64,000 nucleotides of DNA from Actinocatenispora sera (GTDB taxonomy: Bacteria; Actinomycetota; Actinomycetes; Mycobacteriales; Micromonosporaceae): positions 4,216,001 to 4,280,000 of the forward strand of contig NZ_AP023354.1 in assembly GCF_018324685.1 (NCBI RefSeq). The letters run 5' to 3'. Of the stretch, positions 2 to 63,376 are shown in pieces. The translations under genes were made by a program, and so were the position numbers. The notes under the pieces are model-generated. The model saw only the letters and a program-made list of their open reading frames with translations. It did not search any database and was not told the origin of the DNA. Each line of letters starts with the position of its first letter. The stretch's first letter is position 1.

Positions 2-340
2 GCGCTGCTGGAGTGCGACGAGAGTTTCCACGTGCTTCAGGTGATCGACAAGCCGGTGCGCTCGGGCGAGCCGGTCGTGGCGGTCGGCTCCCCGTTGGGG
101 CTGGGCGGATCGGTGACCACCGGGGTGGTCAGTTCGCCGGAGCGTGCGGTGCCGGGCACCGACGACAAGTTCATCCAGTTCGACGCGGCGATCAACCCCG
201 GCAACTCGGGTGGTCCGGTGGTGAACGCGAACGGGCAGGTCGTCGGTATCGCCACCGAGAAGGCGAGGGACGCGGAGGGGATCGGCCTCGCGATCCCGAT
301 CTCCGTACCCTGCGACCAGTTCTCGGTGTGCGGGAAGTGA
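2..340 (+). CDS. S1C trypsin-like serine protease (3' part)
   Basis: This is the C-terminal part of a chymotrypsin-fold serine protease of the HtrA/DegP-like S1C group; the reading frame is open from base 2, so the gene begins upstream of the window. The motif GNSGGPVV at about 193-216 holds the nucleophilic serine, followed by the strand VVGIATEK. The protein stops about 19 residues after AIPI with a Cys-containing tail ([11 protein letters not shown]) and no PDZ domain. Such a short end occurs in membrane-anchored actinomycete S1C proteases, so I read it as a natural end. The next gene encodes a membrane coiled-coil protein on the same strand and may be functionally linked (inference). Confidence 0.85.
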
Positions 341-53750: not shown

Positions 53751-55451
53751 GTGAACCGCAAACCCGTCCTGTCGATCGCCGCGGGTGCGCTGCTGGCCGG
53801 CACCCTCGCCGCCTGCGGCAACACCGGCGGTGGGTCGTCCACCACCGCGTTCGATCCGAAGACCTGCCAGGGCGGCACGCTGGAGGTGCTGAACCAGCGG
53901 GACATCACGCACCTCGACCCGGCCCGGATCTACACCTCCGGCGGCGGCAACATCCCGTCGCTGCTGTTCCGGACGCTGACCACGCGCAACCGGGCCGCCG
54001 GGGCGGCCGGCGCCAACGTGGTACCGGACCTCGCCACCGACCTCGGCACGCCCAGCGACAACGCCAAGAGCTGGACCTACCACCTGCGGTCCGGCCTGAA
54101 GTACTCCGACGGCACCGCGATCACCAGCGCCGACATCAAGTACGGCATCGAGCGCTCGTTCTCGCCGGACCTGCCGGGCGGCGCCGCGTACCTGCGCGAC
54201 TGGCTGGTCGGCGCGAAGAACTACGCCGGCCCGTACAAGGACCCGAAGGGCCTGGGCGCGATCGAGACGCCCGACGCCAGGACGATCGTGTTCCACCTCA
54301 ACAGCCCGCACGGTGACTTCCCGTACCTCGCCACCGCGACCCAGTTCGCGCCGGTACCGAAGGCGAAGGACGACGGGGTCAACTACGAGAAGCACCCGGT
54401 CTCCAGCGGCCCGTACCAGATCAAGACGTACCAGAAGAACAAGAAGCTGGTGCTGACCCGCAACAAGAACTGGTCCCGCAGCATCGACCCGGAGCGGCTG
54501 GCCTGCCCGGACACCATCGACATCACCTCCGGGCTCAACCCGGACGTGATCAACCAGCGGCTGGCGGCGAGCTCCGGCAACGACGCGAACGCGGTCACCA
54601 CCGACACCGACCTCGGCCCGGCGCAGATCTCCCAGCTGCAGGGCAACCCGGAGCTGGCCAAGCGCGTCGCCAAGGGCAACTTCCCGTACACGTACTACCT
54701 GACGTACGACACGACGAAGGCGCCGTTCGACAAGCTGAAGGTGCGCGAGGCGTTCAGCTACGCGGTCAACCGCAACTCGGTGATCAACGCGATCGGCGGC
54801 AGCTCGCTGGGGTACCCGGCGACCACGTTCCTGCCGAAGCAGAAGTCGATGGGCTACCAGCCGTACGACTACTTCCCGGCCGGCAAGAGCGGCAACCCGG
54901 CGAAGGCCAAGCAGCTGCTGGCCCAGGCCGGCTACCCGCACGGACTGACGGTCACGTTGGCGCACAACAACACCGCCGACGACCCGAGCGGCCCCGAGGT
55001 GGCGACCGCGGTGCAGGACGCGCTGAAGAAGGCCGGCATCACCGTCAAGCTGCAGACCATCGACTCCAACTCCTACTACGACACGCTGAACGACCCGAAG
55101 ACCCAGCCGCAGGTGGCGATCGCCGGTTGGGGTGCGGACTGGCCGAGCGGCGGACCGTTCCTGATCCCGCTGTTCGACGGCCGGCAGATCTTCCCGTCCG
55201 GCGGCAACTTCAACACCGCGATGGTGAACGATCCGGCGGTGAACAAGCAGATCGACCGGATCAACGCGATCACCGACCCGGCGCAGGCCGCGAAGGCGTG
55301 GGGTGAGCTGGACGCCTCGATGGGCAAGCAGGCCTGGTACGTGCCGCTCTACCATGGCAAGGACCTGGCGCTGTACGGCAAGAACGTCAAGAACGCCTTC
55401 GTCTCGGACTGGACCGGCGTCTACGACCTGTCCCAGCTCTCGGTCAAGTGA
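53751..55451 (+). CDS. Peptide-type ABC transporter substrate-binding lipoprotein
   Basis: A family-5 extracellular solute-binding protein of 566 residues (DppA/OppA type). The signal peptide ends in a lipobox (GTLAACG), so it is membrane-anchored outside the cell. Typical segments: TLEVLNQRDITHLDPARIYT, LKYSDGTAITSADIKYGIER and VREAFSYAVNRNSVINAIGG. GTG at 53751 follows AAGGAG. The 4-nt overlap with the first permease gene indicates one operon. Confidence 0.92.
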   Translation: MNRKPVLSIAAGALLAGTLAACGNTGGGSSTTAFDPKTCQGGTLEVLNQRDITHLDPARIYTSGGGNIPSLLFRTLTTRNRAAGAAGANVVPDLATDLGTPSDNAKSWTYHLRSGLKYSDGTAITSADIKYGIERSFSPDLPGGAAYLRDWLVGAKNYAGPYKDPKGLGAIETPDARTIVFHLNSPHGDFPYLATATQFAPVPKAKDDGVNYEKHPVSSGPYQIKTYQKNKKLVLTRNKNWSRSIDPERLACPDTIDITSGLNPDVINQRLAASSGNDANAVTTDTDLGPAQISQLQGNPELAKRVAKGNFPYTYYLTYDTTKAPFDKLKVREAFSYAVNRNSVINAIGGSSLGYPATTFLPKQKSMGYQPYDYFPAGKSGNPAKAKQLLAQAGYPHGLTVTLAHNNTADDPSGPEVATAVQDALKKAGITVKLQTIDSNSYYDTLNDPKTQPQVAIAGWGADWPSGGPFLIPLFDGRQIFPSGGNFNTAMVNDPAVNKQIDRINAITDPAQAAKAWGELDASMGKQAWYVPLYHGKDLALYGKNVKNAFVSDWTGVYDLSQLSVK

Positions 55452-56410
55452 GTACCGACGCACTGACCGACCAGGCCACCGCGCCGGCGCCCGAGGGGGG
55501 CGCCGGCGCCCGGTCGGTGTGGCGCGCGTTGCGCCGCGAGCCGGCCGCGCTGGTCGGGCTGATCGTGGTCCTGCTGCTGATCGTGGTGGCGCTCGCGGCG
55601 CCGCTGCTGACCGCGCTGGAGGGACAGGACTACACCAGCTACCACGACGGGCTGCTCGACTCGGCCCGCGGCGGGGTACCGACCGGTGACCTCGGCGGCA
55701 TCTCCGCGCAGCACTGGCTCGGGGTGGAGCCCAAGACCGGCCGCGACCTGTTCGCCCGGGTCGTGTACGGCGCCCGGGTCTCGCTCACGGTCGCCATCTC
55801 GGCCACGATCCTGCAACTGCTGATCGGGCTGACGATCGGGCTGGCCGCGGGGCTGGGTGGCCGCATCGCCGACGCGGTGCTGTCCCGGGTGACCGACCTG
55901 GTACTGGCGTTCCCGGCCCTGATCTTCTCGATCGCGCTGCTGGGCATCGTGCCGCAGTCGTTCCCCCGGCCGGTCCTGCTGGTGCTGGTGTTGGCGCTGT
56001 TCGGGTGGGCCGGCACGGCCCGCATCGCCCGCGGGCAGGCGCTGACGCTCAAGACCCGCGACTACGTGGCGGCGGCCCGGCTCGCCGGCGGCCGCGGTGC
56101 CCGGCTGGCCCGCCGGGAGATCCTGCCCGGCCTCGCCGCGCCGGTAATCACGTACGCGGCGCTGATGGTGCCGGGCAACATCGTGGCCGAGGCCGGCCTG
56201 TCCTTCCTCGGCGTGGGCATCAACCCGCCGACCCCGTCCTGGGGGCAGATGCTGTCGTCGGCGACCACCTGGTTCAGCGGTGACCCGATGTACGTGGCGA
56301 TCCCCGGCGTGCTGCTGTTCGCCACCGTGCTGTCGTTCACGCTGTTCGGCGACGGGCTGCGCAACGCGCTGGATCCGCGCAGCACGTCGCTGTCGAAGAG
56401 GGCGGAGTAG
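55448..56410 (+). CDS. Peptide-type ABC transporter permease (DppC-like)
   Basis: A 320-residue permease: N-terminal OppC_N region (VWRALRREPAALVGLIVVLL), then the BPD_transp_1 domain with about five more helices and the coupling motif ARLAGGRGARLARREILPGL (EAA loop). VEAGLSFLGVGINPPTPSWG is typical of DppC/OppC. GTG overlaps the SBP stop. It partners the DppB-like permease encoded next. Confidence 0.92.
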   Translation: MSTDALTDQATAPAPEGGAGARSVWRALRREPAALVGLIVVLLLIVVALAAPLLTALEGQDYTSYHDGLLDSARGGVPTGDLGGISAQHWLGVEPKTGRDLFARVVYGARVSLTVAISATILQLLIGLTIGLAAGLGGRIADAVLSRVTDLVLAFPALIFSIALLGIVPQSFPRPVLLVLVLALFGWAGTARIARGQALTLKTRDYVAAARLAGGRGARLARREILPGLAAPVITYAALMVPGNIVAEAGLSFLGVGINPPTPSWGQMLSSATTWFSGDPMYVAIPGVLLFATVLSFTLFGDGLRNALDPRSTSLSKRAE

Positions 56411-56412
56411 CC

Positions 56413-56509
56413 GTGGCCGCATACCTGATCCGGCGTGGCGTCATCGCCGCGCCGGTGTTCGTCGGTCTCGAGTGGCAGGAGTCGGCGTGGCCGCATACCT
56501 GATCCGGCG
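56413..56509. repeat. 23-bp direct repeat duplicating a gene start
   Basis: GTGGCCGCATACCTGATCCG plus GCG occurs at 56413-56435 and 56487-56509, 74 bp apart. Both copies begin with GTG and encode VAAYLIRR. Only the second is in frame with the permease; the first is shifted and stops early. It looks like a partial duplication of the permease gene start. Confidence 0.9.
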
Positions 56510-57479
56510 GGTGCTCGGCGCGCTGGTGGTGCTGCTCGTGCTGTCCGCCGCCGTGTACGTCATCTTCTACGCGCTGCCCGGCAACCCGGCGCAGCTGGTC
56601 TGCGGCCCGAAGACCTGCCAGCCCGACCAGCTGCACCGCATCGAGACCGAGCTCGGCCTCGACCAGCCGATCTACCTGCAGTACTGGCACTTCCTGATCG
56701 GCATCTTCGCCGGCCGGACGTTCTCCGGCGGGCCGGAGGCGATCCACTGCGCGGCGCCGTGCCTGGGCTACTCGTACCAGACCGGCGAGCCGGTGACCTC
56801 GCTGCTGCTCGACCGGCTGCCGGTGTCGGCGTCGCTGGTCGTCGGTGGCTTCGTCATCTGGGTACTGGTCGGCGTCGGGCTCGGCGTGATCTCCGCGCTG
56901 CGCCGCGGCCGGGCCCTGGACCGCGTCGTCACCACCGCGACGCTCGCCGGCAACTCGGTACCGGTGTTCCTGGTCGGGTTGCTGCTGCTGATCGTGTTCT
57001 GCGTGTACCTGCGGTGGCTGCCGTTCCCCGGCTACCAGCCGCTGACCGCGAACCCGGCGCTGTGGGCGCAGAACCTGATCCTGCCGTGGGTGTCGCTGTC
57101 GGTGGTGTCGGCCGCCGTCTACACCCGGCTGACCCGCACCTCGATGCTGGAAACGCTGGCGGAGGACCACATCCGCACGTTCCGGGCGTACGGGCTGAGC
57201 GAGTCGCGGGTGATCCGCCGGCACGCCCTGCGCGGCGCGCTGACTCCGCTGATCACGATCGGCACCATCGACCTGGCCACCTCGCTGACCGGGGCGACGC
57301 TGACCGAGAGCCTGTTCGGCCTGCCCGGGTTGGGGCAGCTGCTGGTGACCTCGGTACGCAACATCGACCTGCCCGTGGTGGTCGGCGTGACGATCCTGGC
57401 CGGCACGGTCATCGTGGTGGCCAACATGTTCGCCGACATCCTGTACTCGGTGGCCGACCGGAGGGTGGCGCTGGCATGA
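56487..57479 (+). CDS. Peptide-type ABC transporter permease (DppB-like)
   Basis: A 330-residue permease: N-terminal VAAYLIRRVLGALVVLLVLS, FYALPGNPAQLVCGPKTCQP, and the coupling EAA motif with HIRTFRAYGLSESRVIRRHA. GTG 56487 was chosen because AGGAG precedes it by 6 nt; the frame is also open to GTG 56472. It overlaps the ATPase gene by 4 nt. Confidence 0.92.
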   Translation: MAAYLIRRVLGALVVLLVLSAAVYVIFYALPGNPAQLVCGPKTCQPDQLHRIETELGLDQPIYLQYWHFLIGIFAGRTFSGGPEAIHCAAPCLGYSYQTGEPVTSLLLDRLPVSASLVVGGFVIWVLVGVGLGVISALRRGRALDRVVTTATLAGNSVPVFLVGLLLLIVFCVYLRWLPFPGYQPLTANPALWAQNLILPWVSLSVVSAAVYTRLTRTSMLETLAEDHIRTFRAYGLSESRVIRRHALRGALTPLITIGTIDLATSLTGATLTESLFGLPGLGQLLVTSVRNIDLPVVVGVTILAGTVIVVANMFADILYSVADRRVALA

Positions 57480-59194
57480 CCGACCAGCTTTCGCCGGAGC
57501 CGTCCTCGCACGTGCCGGCCCCGCGGTCCGGCGATCCGGCCGCCGCGCCGATCGTCGCGGTGGACGGGCTGACGGTGACGTTCCCCGGCGGTACCCGGGC
57601 GGTCGACGGGGTGTCGTTCGACCTGGCGCCGGGCGCGTCGCTCGGCATCGTGGGGGAGTCCGGGTCGGGCAAGAGCGCGACCGCGCTGGCCTTGCTCGGC
57701 CTGCACCATGGCACCGGTGCGCGGCTCACCGGCCGGGTCGAGGTCGCCGGTACCGTCGTGGACGACGCCGATCCGGAACGGCTGCGGCGGCTGCGCGGCG
57801 CGACCGCGGCGATGGTGTTCCAGGACCCGATGTCGGCGCTCGACCCGTACTTCAGCGTCGGCAGCCAGATCGCCGAGGTGTACCGGCTGCACACCGGCGC
57901 GTCCCGGCGCGCGGCGTGGTCCCGCGCGGTGGAGGTGCTCGACCACGTCGGGATCCCGCACGCAGCCCGGCGCGCGTCCGAGCCGCCGCACCAGTTCTCC
58001 GGCGGGCAACGGCAGCGGGCGCTGATCGCGATGGCGCTGGCGCTGCGGCCGAAGGTGCTGATCGCCGACGAGCCGACCACCGCGCTGGACGTGACGGTCC
58101 AGGCGCAGATCCTCGACCTGCTGCACGGGCTTCGCGCCGAGACCGGGATGGCGCTGCTGCTGGTCACCCACGACCTCGGGGTGATCGCCGGCACCGTCGA
58201 CGAGGTACTGGTGATGCAGCGCGGCCGGATCGTCGAGCGCGGCGGCGTGCGCCAGGTGCTGTCCGCGCCGGAGCACGACTACACCCGGGCGCTGCTGTCG
58301 GCGGTACCTCGGGTCGACGCGCCACGCCAACGCGCCCTGGCGGACGGCGCGGCTCCGGTCGAACCGCTGGTGCGGATGGTGGACGTGCGGCAGGACTTCC
58401 CGGTCGGCCGCGGCCTCGTGCCGGGCCGGCACCGCAGCGTCGCCGCGGTCGACGGGGTGAGCCTGGACGTGCGGCGCGGCGAGGTCCTCGGCGTGGTCGG
58501 CGAGTCCGGCTCGGGCAAGACGACGCTGGCCCGGATGATGGTGCGGCTGCTGCGTCCCACCGGCGGCCGGGTCGAGTTCGACGGCACCGAGATCGGCGGG
58601 CTGTCCGATCGCCGGCTCGCGCCCTTCCGGCGGGACCTGCAGATGGTGTTCCAGGACCCGATCTCGGCGCTGAACCCGCGCCGCAGCGTGGGGGAGAGCA
58701 TCGCCGATCCGTTGCGTACCGCGGGGATCCGGGACGACGCCCGGATCCGGGCCACGGTGCGGGAGTGGCTGGCGCGGGTCGGGCTGGACCCGGACCGCTA
58801 CGACGCCTACCCGCACGAGTTCTCCGGCGGGCAGCGCCAGCGCATCGGCATCGCCCGCGCGCTGGTCCGCTCGCCCCGGCTCGTGGTGTGCGACGAGCCG
58901 GTGTCGGCGCTGGACGTCTCCACCCAGGCGCAGATCATCGACCTGCTCGCGCAGCTGCGGGCCGAACTGGACCTGACCGTGGTGTTCGTCGCGCACGACC
59001 TCGCGGTGGTACGCCAGGTGTCCGACCGGGTCGCGGTGATGCACGGCGGGAAGCTCGTCGAGCTGGCCGACGCGGACACCGTCTACACCGATCCGCAGCA
59101 CGACTACACCCGCACGCTGCTTGCCGCGGTACCGGTACTCGATCCCGACCTGGCCGCGCAACGCCGGGCTGAGCGCGTCGCAGTGGCCGGCTGA
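57476..59194 (+). CDS. Fused dual ABC ATPase (DppD-DppF type)
   Basis: A 572-residue protein with two complete ABC domains: Walker [16 protein letters not shown] and [15 protein letters not shown], signatures [15 protein letters not shown] and [15 protein letters not shown], and Walker [12 protein letters not shown] and [11 protein letters not shown]. It powers the importer formed with the SBP and permeases. The fusion of the two usual ATPases is common in actinobacteria. Its stop overlaps the SUMF1-like gene by 1 nt. Confidence 0.94.
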
Positions 59195-59979
59195 TGGCCG
59201 ATCCCGTGCGGGCCGGCAACGACCCGGCACCGGCTGGTCGCCGACCCGTCGAGCCACTCACCGGTGACCCGGCCGGCGGTTCGACGGCGGCTGCGGCCAC
59301 GTCGGCCGCTCGCGGCCCGGCGGTCGATCCGGTACCGGTGCCGCTCGGGCCCGGCACGGTGACCCTGTCCGACCGTCGCACCCAGCGGTCCTGGCAGGTG
59401 CCGCTGCGCCGGTACCTGCTCGATCCGGTACCGGTGACCCAGCGCCGGTACGCGGCGGTCACCGGCGCCATGCCGAGCGCCGTCGACGACCCGGACCGCC
59501 CGGTCGACGGCGTCTCCTGGTGGGACGCGGTGCGGTTCTGCAACGCGTACTCCCGGGCCGCCGGGCTCACTCCGGTGTACCGGATCGACGGCGAGGACGT
59601 CTCGGTAGCCGCCGGCGCCGACGGGTACCGGCTGCCGACCGAGGCGGAGTGGGAGTTCGCCTGCCGGGCCGGCAGCACCGGCCCGCGCTACGGCGAACTG
59701 GCCGAGATCGCCTGGTACCGCGGCAACTCCGGCGGGCACAGCCACCCGGTCGGCACCCGGTCGGCGAACGCGTGGGGCCTGTCCGACCTGCTCGGCAACG
59801 TGTGGGAGTGGTGCTTCGACCACTACGACCCGCAGGTGTACGGCAGCTACCGGGTGCTGCGCGGCGGCGGCTGGGCGGACGAGCACTGGAGCTGCCGTGC
59901 CTCGGTACGCCGGCGCAGCCACCCCACCTTCCGCATCGACGACGTCGGCTTCCGCCTGGCCTGCTCCGTCCCGTCCTGA
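59194..59979 (+). CDS. SUMF1/EgtB/PvdO-family protein (FGE-like)
   Basis: A 261-residue formylglycine-generating-enzyme fold: DGVSWWDAVRFCNAYSRAAG, YRLPTEAEWEFACRAGSTG, GLSDLLGNVWEWCFDHYDP and VLRGGGWADEHWSCRASVRR. The first of the two copper-binding active-site cysteines of true FGE is replaced by Asp in this GGGWADEHWSC segment and only the second Cys remains, so sulfatase activation is unlikely. Translationally coupled to the importer ATPase (TGATG), it may modify or bind the imported substrate; no signal peptide is seen. The first about 45 residues are low complexity. Confidence 0.8.
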   Translation: MADPVRAGNDPAPAGRRPVEPLTGDPAGGSTAAAATSAARGPAVDPVPVPLGPGTVTLSDRRTQRSWQVPLRRYLLDPVPVTQRRYAAVTGAMPSAVDDPDRPVDGVSWWDAVRFCNAYSRAAGLTPVYRIDGEDVSVAAGADGYRLPTEAEWEFACRAGSTGPRYGELAEIAWYRGNSGGHSHPVGTRSANAWGLSDLLGNVWEWCFDHYDPQVYGSYRVLRGGGWADEHWSCRASVRRRSHPTFRIDDVGFRLACSVPS

Positions 59980-60060: not shown

Positions 60061-60987
60061 TCAGCGTCCGGGTACCCCGGTTCCGGTCTCGGCGAGGAAG
60101 TCGGTGATCAGGGCGGCGGTGCGATCGGGCAGCTCGTACAGCAGGGCGTGGCTGGCCGGGAGTGACACGGCGCGGACCAGCGGGTTGGCCAGCCCGGCCA
60201 GCCGCGCGGCGACGTGCCGGCGGTACGCCTCGGTCAGCGCGCCGAACTCCTGCTGCTCGGGCAGGTCGCGCTCGGCCGACACCACCAGCGTCGGCCGCAC
60301 CGCGCGCCGGTACAGCGGGTACGGGTCGGCTTCGCGCAGGGCGGCCCGGATGTCGCGCAGTGCGCCGGCGCCCGGTCGGGCGAACGTCTCGCCGGCGCGC
60401 GTCACCAGGCCCGCCCGTACCGCTGTCTCGGCGTCGTCGGCCGACAACCCGGCCGCCTCCGCGGCGCTGCGCCGGGAGGTCACCATCGCCTGTACCGCCG
60501 GCTCGGGCAGCGGCCCGGCGAGCATCGCCTCCATCGCGTCGAACTGGCCCGCCAGCCTCGCGAGCAGTTCCACGGCCGTGTCCGCGGCGAGGCCCGGGCA
60601 CTGTTGCGGTGAGCGTACCGACGGGTGCCCGTCCAGGTTGACCACCGCCGGGCAGTCCGGCCGCCGGCCCGCCCAGTACACCGCGAGCAGCCCGCCCAGC
60701 GACATGCCGACCACCGCCGGCGTGCCGGTGCCGAGCGCCGTCACGGTGGCGTCCAGCGCGTCGCAGGCCCGCGCCCAGTTCCACGTGCCGCCGGGCGCCG
60801 CACCGTGCCCGGGCAGGTCGACCGCGACGACCCGGTGCCGTTTCCGCAGCGCCGGCACCAGCGGGTACCAGTCGTGCCGGCTGCCGCCCGCGCCGTGCAG
60901 CAACAGCACCGGCGGCCCGTCACCGCCGTGGTCCTCGACCGGCAGTACGCCGACCGGCGTGTCGTCGTGCCGTGTGGCTGGGCTCAT
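60061..60987 (-). CDS. Alpha/beta hydrolase
   Basis: A 308-residue alpha/beta hydrolase: oxyanion HG in VLLLHGAGGSRHDWYPLVPA, nucleophile elbow AVVGMSLGGLLAVYWAG, acid in RPTLVVSAERDLPE and His in VSLPASHALLYELP. It fits the esterase/epoxide-hydrolase-like fold with a lid. ATG overlaps the HTH gene stop by 4 nt. The substrate is unknown. Confidence 0.88.
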   Translation of the reverse strand: MSPATRHDDTPVGVLPVEDHGGDGPPVLLLHGAGGSRHDWYPLVPALRKRHRVVAVDLPGHGAAPGGTWNWARACDALDATVTALGTGTPAVVGMSLGGLLAVYWAGRRPDCPAVVNLDGHPSVRSPQQCPGLAADTAVELLARLAGQFDAMEAMLAGPLPEPAVQAMVTSRRSAAEAAGLSADDAETAVRAGLVTRAGETFARPGAGALRDIRAALREADPYPLYRRAVRPTLVVSAERDLPEQQEFGALTEAYRRHVAARLAGLANPLVRAVSLPASHALLYELPDRTAALITDFLAETGTGVPGR

Positions 60988-61454
60988 CGCGGTGCCTCCA
61001 GAGTGGACAGTCGAGCTCGGACGGAGGTGACCCGGACCCCGCCATCGGGGTGCCGGTCGAGCTTGCCGCGCTGGATCAGGTCGTGCACCGCCTGCCGGGT
61101 GACGCCGAGCATCGCGCCGGCCACCGCGTACGACACGTGGTGCGCGCCGGGATGCCCGACCCGCCGGGCGACGACCCGGCCGAGCGGGGTGGCCCACCAG
61201 GCGGCCGGCGGGTCGAACGCGGCATCATCCGGGTACAGCGTGGCGACCAGCCGGGCGGCGGTGAACCTGGCCTGCCGGCCGTCCGGGCCGAGCAGTTGTA
61301 CTGTCCACACCTGCGTCTGCTCGTACACCCTGGTGCGCAACGTGTCGACCGTGCGGTCGCCGTCGAGCAGGATCTCCAGCGGGTCGAGCAGCCGGGTACC
61401 GACGACCTCGGTCAGCTGCCGCCGCAGGTCGTCGGGATCGGGAAGTCCAGACAC
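60984..61454 (-). CDS. HTH DNA-binding protein paired with the hydrolase
   Basis: A 156-residue protein whose C-terminal part is an excisionase-like helix-turn-helix: HHVSYAVAGAMLGVTRQAVHD, then LIQRGKLDRHPDGGVRVTSV. The N-terminal part is not a family I can name. GTG 61454 was chosen because AAGGAGG stands 7 nt upstream; the frame is open to 61505. Immediately upstream is the CTTGAC/GTCAAG array, the likely binding site of this protein, which would then control itself and the hydrolase. Confidence 0.75.
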   Translation of the reverse strand: MSGLPDPDDLRRQLTEVVGTRLLDPLEILLDGDRTVDTLRTRVYEQTQVWTVQLLGPDGRQARFTAARLVATLYPDDAAFDPPAAWWATPLGRVVARRVGHPGAHHVSYAVAGAMLGVTRQAVHDLIQRGKLDRHPDGGVRVTSVRARLSTLEAPR

Positions 61455-61465
61455 GGCCTCGCCTC

Positions 61466-61506
61466 CTTGACGACCAGTGTCAAGCTGCTTGACGCCGATT
61501 GTCAAG
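61466..61506. promoter_or_regulatory. Symmetric CTTGAC/GTCAAG operator array
   Basis: CTTGAC (61466-61471), 7 nt, GTCAAG (61479-61484), 3 nt, CTTGAC (61488-61493), 7 nt, GTCAAG (61501-61506): two inverted pairs of hexamers in perfect register. On the minus strand two of them read as TTGACA boxes, so bound protein would also cover a -35 element of the HTH-hydrolase operon. Confidence 0.75.
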
Positions 61507-61538
61507 GGCGGCGCCTTTGCGAGCAGTAGGCCGGCGAC

Positions 61539-62268
61539 GTGCCGATGAAGCTGTCCGGCCTGCGTGTCCTGCTCGACTTTTACCAGGTCACCGACACCGA
61601 GCTGCGGTCCGAGCTGCTGACCCTGCAGAAGCTGGGCAACCAGCGCGGTTGCCGGGCCGGACTGGGCACCGTGACCAGCTCGTTCTCGACGTTTCTGGGG
61701 CTGGAGAGCGCCGCGACCAGGATCAGCATCTTCGATGCCGCTGATGGTGCACGGACTCCTGCAGACCGAAGACTATGCGCGAGCCATCGACAGGCTTGCC
61801 CTCAACTCGACACCGGAGTCCGTCGAGCGGCAGGTGCAGATCCGCATGGGGCGGCAGCAGAACGTCTGGACCCGTGATGAGCCGCCGACGTTGGAGTTCG
61901 TCCTGGACGAGGCGGCGCTGCGCCGCCCGGTTGGTTCTCGTGCCACGATGCATGCCCAGCTGCTGCACCTGATCGAGCTGTCCGACCGGTGCCAGCTGCA
62001 GGTGATCCCGTTGCGTGGCGGCGCACACCTGGGCCCGCTCGGGGCCATCACGATCTTCGAGTTCCCCGAGGAACTGCACTCGCCGGTGCCCTACGTGGAG
62101 GGGCAGGCGGGCAACCTCTATCTGGAGAAGTCGGCCGAGCTGGCGCGGGCTAACCTGACCGACAACCGCCTCACCGCGGCGGCGCTCAGCCCGGCCGACT
62201 CGGCGGAGCTGATCGCCCGGCTCCCGGCCGAGGACCCCGTGATGATCAGGTTGGAGCCGGGATCGTGA
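61539..62268 (+). pseudogene. XRE-family regulator remnant (DUF5753), truncated and frameshifted
   Basis: The visible part is the end of an XRE HTH linker (MKLSGLRVLLDFYQVTDTEL) and the DUF5753 domain (MVHGLLQTEDYARAIDRLAL, RMGRQQNVW, FVLDEAALRRPVGS, VIPLRGGAHLGPLGAITIFE). The N-terminal HTH, about 55 residues, is missing: an in-frame stop precedes GDVPMK. A frameshift at about 61735 separates FLGLESAATRISIFDA from the rest. The gene is decayed; its usual DUF397 partner follows with a 4-nt overlap. Confidence 0.8.
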
Positions 62269-62519
62269 CCGTCGACCTCGCCAACGCCGTGTGGCGCGAG
62301 AGCATCATGTCAGCGAGCAACGGAGGCTGCGTCGAGGTGGCCGACCTCGGCGAGGTCGTCGCGGTGCGCGACTCGAAGCAGCCCGACGTCGTCGTCACCG
62401 TACCGGGAGATCATCGGTGGCGTGTCCGGCGACGAGCGGGTTCCATGCTTCGCGGATGGCGGTCGGCAGGACGAGTTCGTCCCACAGGTCGACGAGTAGC
62501 ACTCCATCGACGTAGGTGA
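62265..62519 (+). pseudogene. DUF397 gene truncated by the convergent neighbour
   Basis: The first about 40 residues are a DUF397 domain: AVWRESIMSASNGGCVEVAD, then LGEVVAVRDSKQPD. After VVVTVPGDH the expected FTPxEWxAF end is replaced by unrelated Arg-rich sequence. The break falls at the 3' end of the convergent gene that ends at 62395. DUF397 proteins are normally small partners of XRE/DUF5753 regulators, matching the remnant just upstream. Confidence 0.75.
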
Positions 62520-62736
62520 GCACGTCTTCCGGGGTGCCTTCGCGGAGAACGATCTCGTACACCCACGCCCGATCGCGCCGGCGACCCAGATTGAAGCTGC
62601 GGCCGGTGTCGGACCAGTTCAGCGACAGCGGCAGCACGACCGTCGCTAGCGCTCGCTCGGCGGGGAGGCGCGGCAGCACGTTCGGGACCTGGACGGGTAG
62701 GCCGCGATAGGTGGCGACCTCGCGGAATTCGATCAT
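62395..62736 (-). CDS. Conserved-type small actinomycete protein of unknown function
   Basis: A 113-residue soluble protein (MIEFREVATYRGLPVQVPNV at the start; REGTPEDVLTYVDGVLLVDL in the second half). ATG 62736 was chosen by the sensible N-terminus. No motif is recognised. It lies convergent against a truncated DUF397 gene, so it may have been inserted or retained next to a defunct XRE module; a toxin-antitoxin role is possible but unsupported. Confidence 0.6.
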   Translation of the reverse strand: MIEFREVATYRGLPVQVPNVLPRLPAERALATVVLPLSLNWSDTGRSFNLGRRRDRAWVYEIVLREGTPEDVLTYVDGVLLVDLWDELVLPTAIREAWNPLVAGHATDDLPVR

Positions 62737-62881
62737 GGTGCTTGATGCTCGCTTGTCACGTGGCACGAGGTAGCGGGTCTCCTACGCAGCCACCGACGCC
62801 CTGGGCTGTCGAAGAGCGCGCGGGACGGGCAGACGACAGCGCGGCGCCGCCGGACGGGCGGCGCCGCGGTGGGTGGTGTGC

Positions 62882-63376
62882 TCAGCGGGTGGCGAGGGCG
62901 GTGTCGATGCTGGCCAGTACCGCCGGGTCGTCGGGCACGGTGGTCGGGCGGTGCCGGGCGATCACCGAGCCGTCCGCGCCGAGGACGAACTTCTCGAAGT
63001 TCCACTGCACGTCGCCGGCGGTGCCGTCGGCGTCGGCCGCCTCGGTCAGCGCGGCGTAGACCGGGTGCCGGCCGGCGCCGTTCACCTCGATCTTCTCGGT
63101 CAGCGGGAAGCTCACCCCGTACGTGGTGGAGCAGAACGTGCGGATCTCCTCCGCGCTGCCCGGCTCCTGCTCACCGAACTGGTTGCACGGCACGCCGACG
63201 ACGGTCAGGCCGCGGTCGGCGTACTCGCCGGCCAGCTTCTCCAGCGCCGTGTACTGCGGGGTCAGGCCGCACTTCGACGCGACGTTGACGACCAGCAGCG
63301 CGTTGCCCGCGGCGAGCTGGCGAAGCGAGCTCGGCGCACCCTCCAGCGTGCCGATCGGCAGATCCAGTACGGACAC
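62882..63376 (-). CDS. Glutathione peroxidase family protein
   Basis: A 164-residue thiol peroxidase of the glutathione peroxidase family: catalytic Cys in NVASKCGLTPQYTALEKL, GVPCNQFGEQEPGSAEEIRT with the Gln, and VQWNFEKFVLGADG with the Trp/Asn of the active site. It probably uses thioredoxin-type reductants. The GTG at 63376 is preceded by an AAGGAGG site at 63384-63390 region (complement), but no stop codon separates it from the siderophore-interacting protein frame upstream, so it is also the C-terminal end of that longer frame. Confidence 0.9.
   Translation of the reverse strand: MSVLDLPIGTLEGAPSSLRQLAAGNALLVVNVASKCGLTPQYTALEKLAGEYADRGLTVVGVPCNQFGEQEPGSAEEIRTFCSTTYGVSFPLTEKIEVNGAGRHPVYAALTEAADADGTAGDVQWNFEKFVLGADGSVIARHRPTTVPDDPAVLASIDTALATR

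Follow-up and report, generated by a model that had tools for sequence, protein, structure and literature searches.

A conserved inverted-repeat array before a regulator–hydrolase gene pair in Actinocatenispora sera, most likely the switch of an unnamed regulator

The locus and its two proteins

The window analysed here, a stretch of 64,000 nucleotides of Actinocatenispora sera, carries on its minus strand a gene for a 156-residue regulator followed by a gene for an alpha/beta hydrolase, and an array of short repeats lies directly before the pair (Table 1). The initial annotation had described four hexamers forming two inverted pairs with exact 7-3-7 spacing, and the coordinates bear this out: two exact CTTGAC-N7-GTCAAG palindromes occupy 61466-61506, with 3 bases between them. 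The GTG start of the regulator gene, which is single-copy in the source genome, is preceded at 7 bases by AAGGAGG. The coupling of this gene to a hydrolase, also proposed at the outset, holds in the window, where the two frames overlap in an ATGA and the second product matches the Abhydrolase_6 profile (PF12697, E 8.9e-21, 76 bits against a threshold of 26.3), which places it in the alpha/beta hydrolase superfamily.

Table 1. Features of the array and of the genes and protein domains next to it; DNA positions are those of the window.
Feature	Position	Strand	Remarks
Alpha/beta hydrolase gene, 308 aa (Abhydrolase_6)	60061..60987	-	ATGA overlap with regulator stop codon
Regulator gene, 156 aa	60984..61454	-	GTG start at 61454; directly downstream of array
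Shine-Dalgarno sequence AAGGAGG	61462..61468	-	merged with last half-site
Palindrome A, CTTGAC-N7-GTCAAG	61466..61484		regulator-proximal; CTTGAC 61466-61471, GTCAAG 61479-61484; overlaps minus-strand Shine-Dalgarno sequence
Predicted -10 hexamer GACACT (weak)	61476..61481	-	18-bp spacer; by eye, relatives compared
Palindrome B, CTTGAC-N7-GTCAAG	61488..61506		distal; CTTGAC 61488-61493, GTCAAG 61501-61506; TTGACA within, on minus strand
Predicted -35 hexamer TTGACA	61500..61505	-	coincides with outer half-site; position kept in relatives
Regulator N-terminal helical domain (predicted)	residues ~7-98		AlphaFold2 model
Regulator C-terminal Xis/BldC-like winged HTH (predicted)	residues ~101-154		AlphaFold2 model and structural match

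A pattern search of the whole 7,044,238-base (7.04-Mb) genome returned the exact palindrome in these two adjacent copies and nowhere else, against about 0.09 exact copies per genome expected from the base composition of the window. It is by exactness and adjacency that the array stands out; the 2 palindrome matches found in the window when up to 2 mismatches are allowed are unexceptional (shuffle mean 1.01, with at least 2 matches in 26 of 100 shuffles). We rejected a chance origin in view of the exact copies, set against the 0.09 expected, together with the conservation in homologues described below. The source genome gave no sign of a wider regulon, the 7 further places that match with one mismatch being fewer than the 14 found for the reversed control.

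Several other features surround the operon. Positions 55448-59194 hold ORFs resembling, from their translations only, a peptide-type ABC transporter operon (permeases, fused ATPases), and a protein of the FGE-sulfatase type (formylglycine-generating enzyme-like) is encoded at 59194-59979, convergent to the hydrolase. On the other side of the array, a DUF5753 regulator remnant (61539-62519), split over two frames and matching no HTH profile, lies together with a DUF397 ORF; the block of about 1.37 kb that bears it (61514-62885) begins 7 bases from the array and stands in place of 58 bp in Actinocatenispora comari.

An AlphaFold2 model of the regulator built from 51 family sequences reached a pLDDT of 94.6 and places the HTH at the C-terminus, in agreement with the initial annotation, with no long helix after it. 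The best structural match of the HTH is the Xis of mycobacteriophage Pukovnik (4j2n; Z 8.6, rmsd 1.3 Å over 50 residues), and it also matches BldC (6ama_A; Z 7.2, 2.5 Å over 50 residues, model residues 104-153). Foldseek returned nothing at E<=0.001 with the whole model, nor with the N-terminal domain alone, which when folded by itself reached a pLDDT of 94.0 and whose best second-look Z was 4.1; this does not show that the predicted domain is a new fold. The regulator matched no NCBIfam, PADLOC or PHROG model. Kinship with MftR was considered and rejected, the profile similarity to its C-terminal domain (TetR_C_14, PF17754) being weak: the window regulator scores 21.4 bits, below the Pfam gathering threshold of 22.7, and the search against PDB MftR gave E 0.47, although 27 of the 51 family members match the profile at E<=0.01.

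For the hydrolase no specific activity is assigned, because none of its 21 NCBIfam matches reaches the cut-off, and its PDB relatives suggest no substrate, being general (best E 1e-11, "possible hydrolase"). A defence or phage origin was likewise set aside: PADLOC at E<=0.01 matched neither protein, the regulator has no PHROG, and no phage record has a match. The hydrolase has one PHROG match, to a general esterase/lipase, and the sole plasmid record with a match, from Nonomuraea gerenzanensis, has the look of a mislabelled chromosome, being 11.85 Mb long.

Array and regulator gene across genomes

Counting the source genome, the regulator family occurs in 18 of 101 genomes, and a scan of named genomes, which detects close relatives only, gave 52 loci, 3 of them repeating the 101-genome search. 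The closest homologues belong to A. comari (89% identity) and A. rupis (66%), and others to Nonomuraea, Actinomadura, Microbispora, Micromonospora, Saccharopolyspora and further genera. Three duplicates (L006, L008 and L011, of L023, L024 and L055) were removed, and leaving out four truncated matches (L069, L070, L071 and L074) brought 72 loci down to 68. The initial annotation had named a lack of the array upstream of orthologues as evidence against its proposal; instead, a 23-bp consensus site, TACTTGAC-N7-GTCAAGTA, reaches our cut-off of at least 13 of 16 positions upstream of 67 of the 68 non-truncated homologues, as scored with a consensus built from these very loci. Among 1343 control stretches taken from those loci the scores go no higher than 12, a value reached by 8; the one exceptional locus (L021) has a best site of 12/16.

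When two sites were scored together, 53 of the 68 loci proved to have them 21 bp apart (7-2-7) and 13 to have one good site, from which it follows that the pair is not needed everywhere. The window and A. comari have their sites 22 bp apart, so that the 7-3-7 spacing, exact as it is in the window, does not stand as a family rule and is better seen as a local variant of the 7-2-7 arrangement. Near-invariant positions in the 53 two-site loci are 4-8 and 37-42, whereas most of the sequence in the N7 cores and flanks drifts. The 21-bp period amounts to two helical turns, a phasing that makes cooperative binding of dimers plausible. Two loci depart from the common layout, one with three palindromes in succession (L058) and another with two full palindromes about 41 bp apart (L160). 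Among the truncated regulator matches, three have no site in the 400 bases upstream (L069, L070 and L071, with best scores of 9, 10 and 8/16) and the truncated gene at L097 also lacks the array, but the site is still there at L074 (13/16), and hence array and gene are not always lost jointly.

Because the consensus had been derived from homologue loci, we searched whole genomes for the array, using the pattern TACTTGAC-N9-CAAGTACTTG with at most one mismatch. Among 200 Streptosporangiaceae genomes, 40 have the regulator family, and the array is confined to these, being present in 33 of the 40 and in none of the 160 without the gene (Fisher p = 3e-31, for genomes that are related and hence non-independent); the reversed control pattern matches in 7 of the 200. 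The search for the array upstream of homologues that the initial annotation had proposed thus came out in its favour. Each of the 33 genomes has a single array place, 9-57 bp before the gene match in 32 of them, and 14 of these arrays are loci behind the consensus while 19 are new. The seven gene-bearing genomes without a pattern match have a two-site array with more mismatches (G423), an altered array (G435), one site each (G398, G552 and G465, the last being locus L064) or a truncated gene without array (G115 and G561, the latter being L069).

In a class-wide draw, the site occurs with at most one mismatch in 11 of 296 genomes and the regulator family in 10 of 292, both being present in 7. 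Exact palindromes occur in 4 genomes, each time upstream of a homologue; a further 4 have a one-mismatch site without the gene, and for the reversed control there are 8 genomes with a match. One genome without the regulator family has a site, TACTTGAC-N7-GACAAGTA, beside ORFs resembling an AraC-type regulator and a monooxygenase (L081 in G202); this site is probably due to chance.

These counts bear on the possibility that the array belongs to some other regulator encoded elsewhere, for instance an HspR-like or XRE-type protein, which would control the operon incidentally. The array resembles the HspR site, CTTGAGT-N7-ACTCAAG in the excerpted text of PMC6102357, and a DUF5753 remnant adjoins it in the window. 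Against this, the array is present in 33 of 40 genomes with the gene and 0 of 160 without it, each of the 33 having it at a single place, and A. comari has the array without the remnant-bearing block. We therefore regard control by an outside regulator as quite improbable. We rejected HspR in particular, since CTTGAC-N7-GTCAAG differs from its HAIR element and no HAIR lies within one mismatch in the source genome, a weak argument given that real HspR sites can be degenerate.

By partner calls that include Pfam checks on 14 proteins, the gene after the regulator encodes a hydrolase at 52 of the 68 loci, an aldo/keto reductase at 6, a PLP enzyme at 3 and none of these at 7. Four aldo/keto reductase loci (L056, L057, L060 and L061) still have the array, scoring 28/30. 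The array thus goes with the regulator and not with the hydrolase, for which other enzymes stand in at 9 of 68 loci; this refines the original proposal of an HTH-hydrolase pair under the array.

Two single cases concern the link between protein and DNA. In BldC, the excerpted text of PMC5859096 gives Lys26 and Arg30 as base contacts and Thr27 as a phosphate contact, and regulator residues 121, 122 and 125 align to Lys26, Thr27 and Arg30 when counted without gaps from the starts of the structural-match ranges. Residue 122, in the recognition helix, is Gly in 85 of the 90 distinct HTH stretches compared; 4 others have Ala there and one has Phe. The protein with Phe is that of locus L156 (the altered array of G435), where the first position of CTTGAC is changed from C to A in 3 of the 4 half-sites and to G in the fourth, an ATTGAC-type array; this would be expected if the regulator reads its own array, though it is a single event. 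In G441, a full array lies directly before a broken hydrolase ORF (L147, contig C129), while a different contig carries the regulator gene, which has a degenerate site only. If that assembly (960 contigs, 5% contamination) is right, the array there would act in trans on the enzyme alone.

Promoter overlap and a model of self-repression

The predicted promoter falls on the array. Start codons, and the two classes of loci that they define, were assigned by rule and not from transcripts, taking the first in-frame start from 3 bases before the array end. A GTG within the last half-site is the first usable start at 26 of the 53 two-site loci. At 25 of these 26, TTGACN is followed by TAnnnT at a distance of 19 bp, and 23 have no Shine-Dalgarno-like word in the 20 bases past the array. 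The other 27 loci include 24 with such a word and 18 in which GAnnnT or TAnnnT fits with a 17-bp spacer, the -10 being in each case the best of five spacers and hence a fit, not a proof. With the GTG in the array and Shine-Dalgarno-like words missing from 23 of its 26 members, the first class looks leaderless.

One could suppose from this overlap that no protein binds the repeats, which would be kept only as promoter hexamers, with RNA or chance symmetry accounting for the rest. It speaks for this that TTGAC matches a -35 hexamer and that translation signals run into the last half-site: the Shine-Dalgarno sequence in the window, the start codon at 26 of 53 loci. A promoter role leaves unexplained, however, the near-invariant fourth half-site GTCAAG and the repetition at 21 bp, and a transcript starting at the in-array GTG would leave the repeats mostly outside the RNA, so that we give this explanation very little credence.

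We suggest that the array is most likely the switch through which an unnamed regulator controls itself and the adjacent enzyme gene, and we put the probability that the encoded protein binds the array and represses its own operon at roughly two in three. The array would be the operator-promoter of a regulator-enzyme operon, on which the 156-residue protein would sit as two dimers, one per palindrome, by way of its C-terminal winged HTH, the N-terminal helical domain serving in dimerisation and probably as ligand domain. The outer half-site TTGAC would be the -35, while the array's inner portion would lie over the -10 region, so that the bound protein would block RNA polymerase, as the position of the sites over both hexamers suggests. 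The operon would remain self-repressed until a small molecule frees the protein, and the co-transcribed enzyme may act on this same molecule or on one related to it, a guess from operon logic. Binding, repression, cooperativity, ligand control and the role of the enzyme are all steps that we infer.

The main rival to self-repression is activation in the manner of MerR, in which the protein would bind the array and realign a promoter with an over-long spacer rather than block it. A long (19-bp) spacer is typical of MerR-activated promoters, the GTG-in-array loci have TTGACN and TAnnnT at just this distance in 25 of 26 cases, and the DNA-binding domain has a MerR-like fold. Against this, the palindromes lie over the -35 and -10 hexamers and not merely between them, a 17-bp spacer fits 18 of the 27 loci of the other class, and the HTH is C-terminal without a long helix after it. 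We consider such activation unlikely.

More tentatively, and with some doubt, these loci might represent an undescribed family of self-contained switches in the Actinomycetota, each comprising a single-locus promoter-operator, a regulator whose N-terminal helical domain is a sensor of a new type, and an exchangeable enzyme (hydrolase, aldo/keto reductase or PLP enzyme) acting on the sensed molecule. Since each genome has the site at a single place and the enzyme partner varies by lineage, the system is possibly a compact natural sensor module. Sequence analysis alone supplies a regulator family, unnamed in the curated libraries searched here, with an operator, a map of its promoter and a mechanism that can be tested; the identity of the ligand would reveal a metabolite watched by these soil bacteria, and the array and regulator together could be used as a genetic switch for actinomycetes.

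Relation to known systems

A literature search of open-licence papers returned, among those listed, no description that we recognised of the motif or of the regulator-hydrolase pair, and the nearest systems each share a part of the arrangement. Pukovnik Xis is a lone small excision factor, and unlike the window regulator it has neither the N-terminal domain nor an enzyme partner. The operator dyad of classical MerR proteins sits inside a 19-20-bp promoter spacer; here the palindromes cover the hexamers, and the fitted spacer measures 19 bp at 25 of the 26 loci with an in-array GTG and 17 bp at 18 of the other 27. The protein also differs from classical MerR in its C-terminal HTH, the MerR arrangement being an N-terminal HTH and a coiled coil.

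HspR carries its HTH at the N-terminus and controls heat-shock genes. It is, in the excerpted text of PMC6102357, a MerR-family repressor of its own promoter for which cooperative dimers are proposed, and its HAIR element resembles the array in its CTTGA-type inverted repeats and N7 core; the distance from CTTGA to TCAAG is 11 bases in HAIR as given there and 9 in the window array. BldC, a MerR-like regulator of Streptomyces, shares with the window regulator the winged-HTH fold and repeated DNA sites. According to the portion of PMC5859096 used here, it is a protein of 68 residues that lacks a dimerisation or effector domain and recognises head-to-tail direct repeats, whereas the window regulator has an added helical N-terminal domain of about 98 residues, confidently predicted and with a presumptive role, and the array consists of conserved inverted repeats, not direct repeats alone. 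CvkR is described in the excerpted text of PMC9938897 as a small MerR-like repressor of CAST systems with inverted-repeat sites and leaderless expression. It differs from the window system, on the same portion of that source, in its motif (AnnACATnATGTnnT), its cyanobacterial host, its C-terminal sensor region and its target, a CRISPR-associated transposase.

By analogy, the system would work like an autoregulated repressor of the HspR or CvkR type equipped with a winged helix of the BldC/Xis type. What sets it apart from HspR, CvkR, BldC and Xis is the combination of a C-terminal HTH, an extra helical domain and inverted sites with another core.
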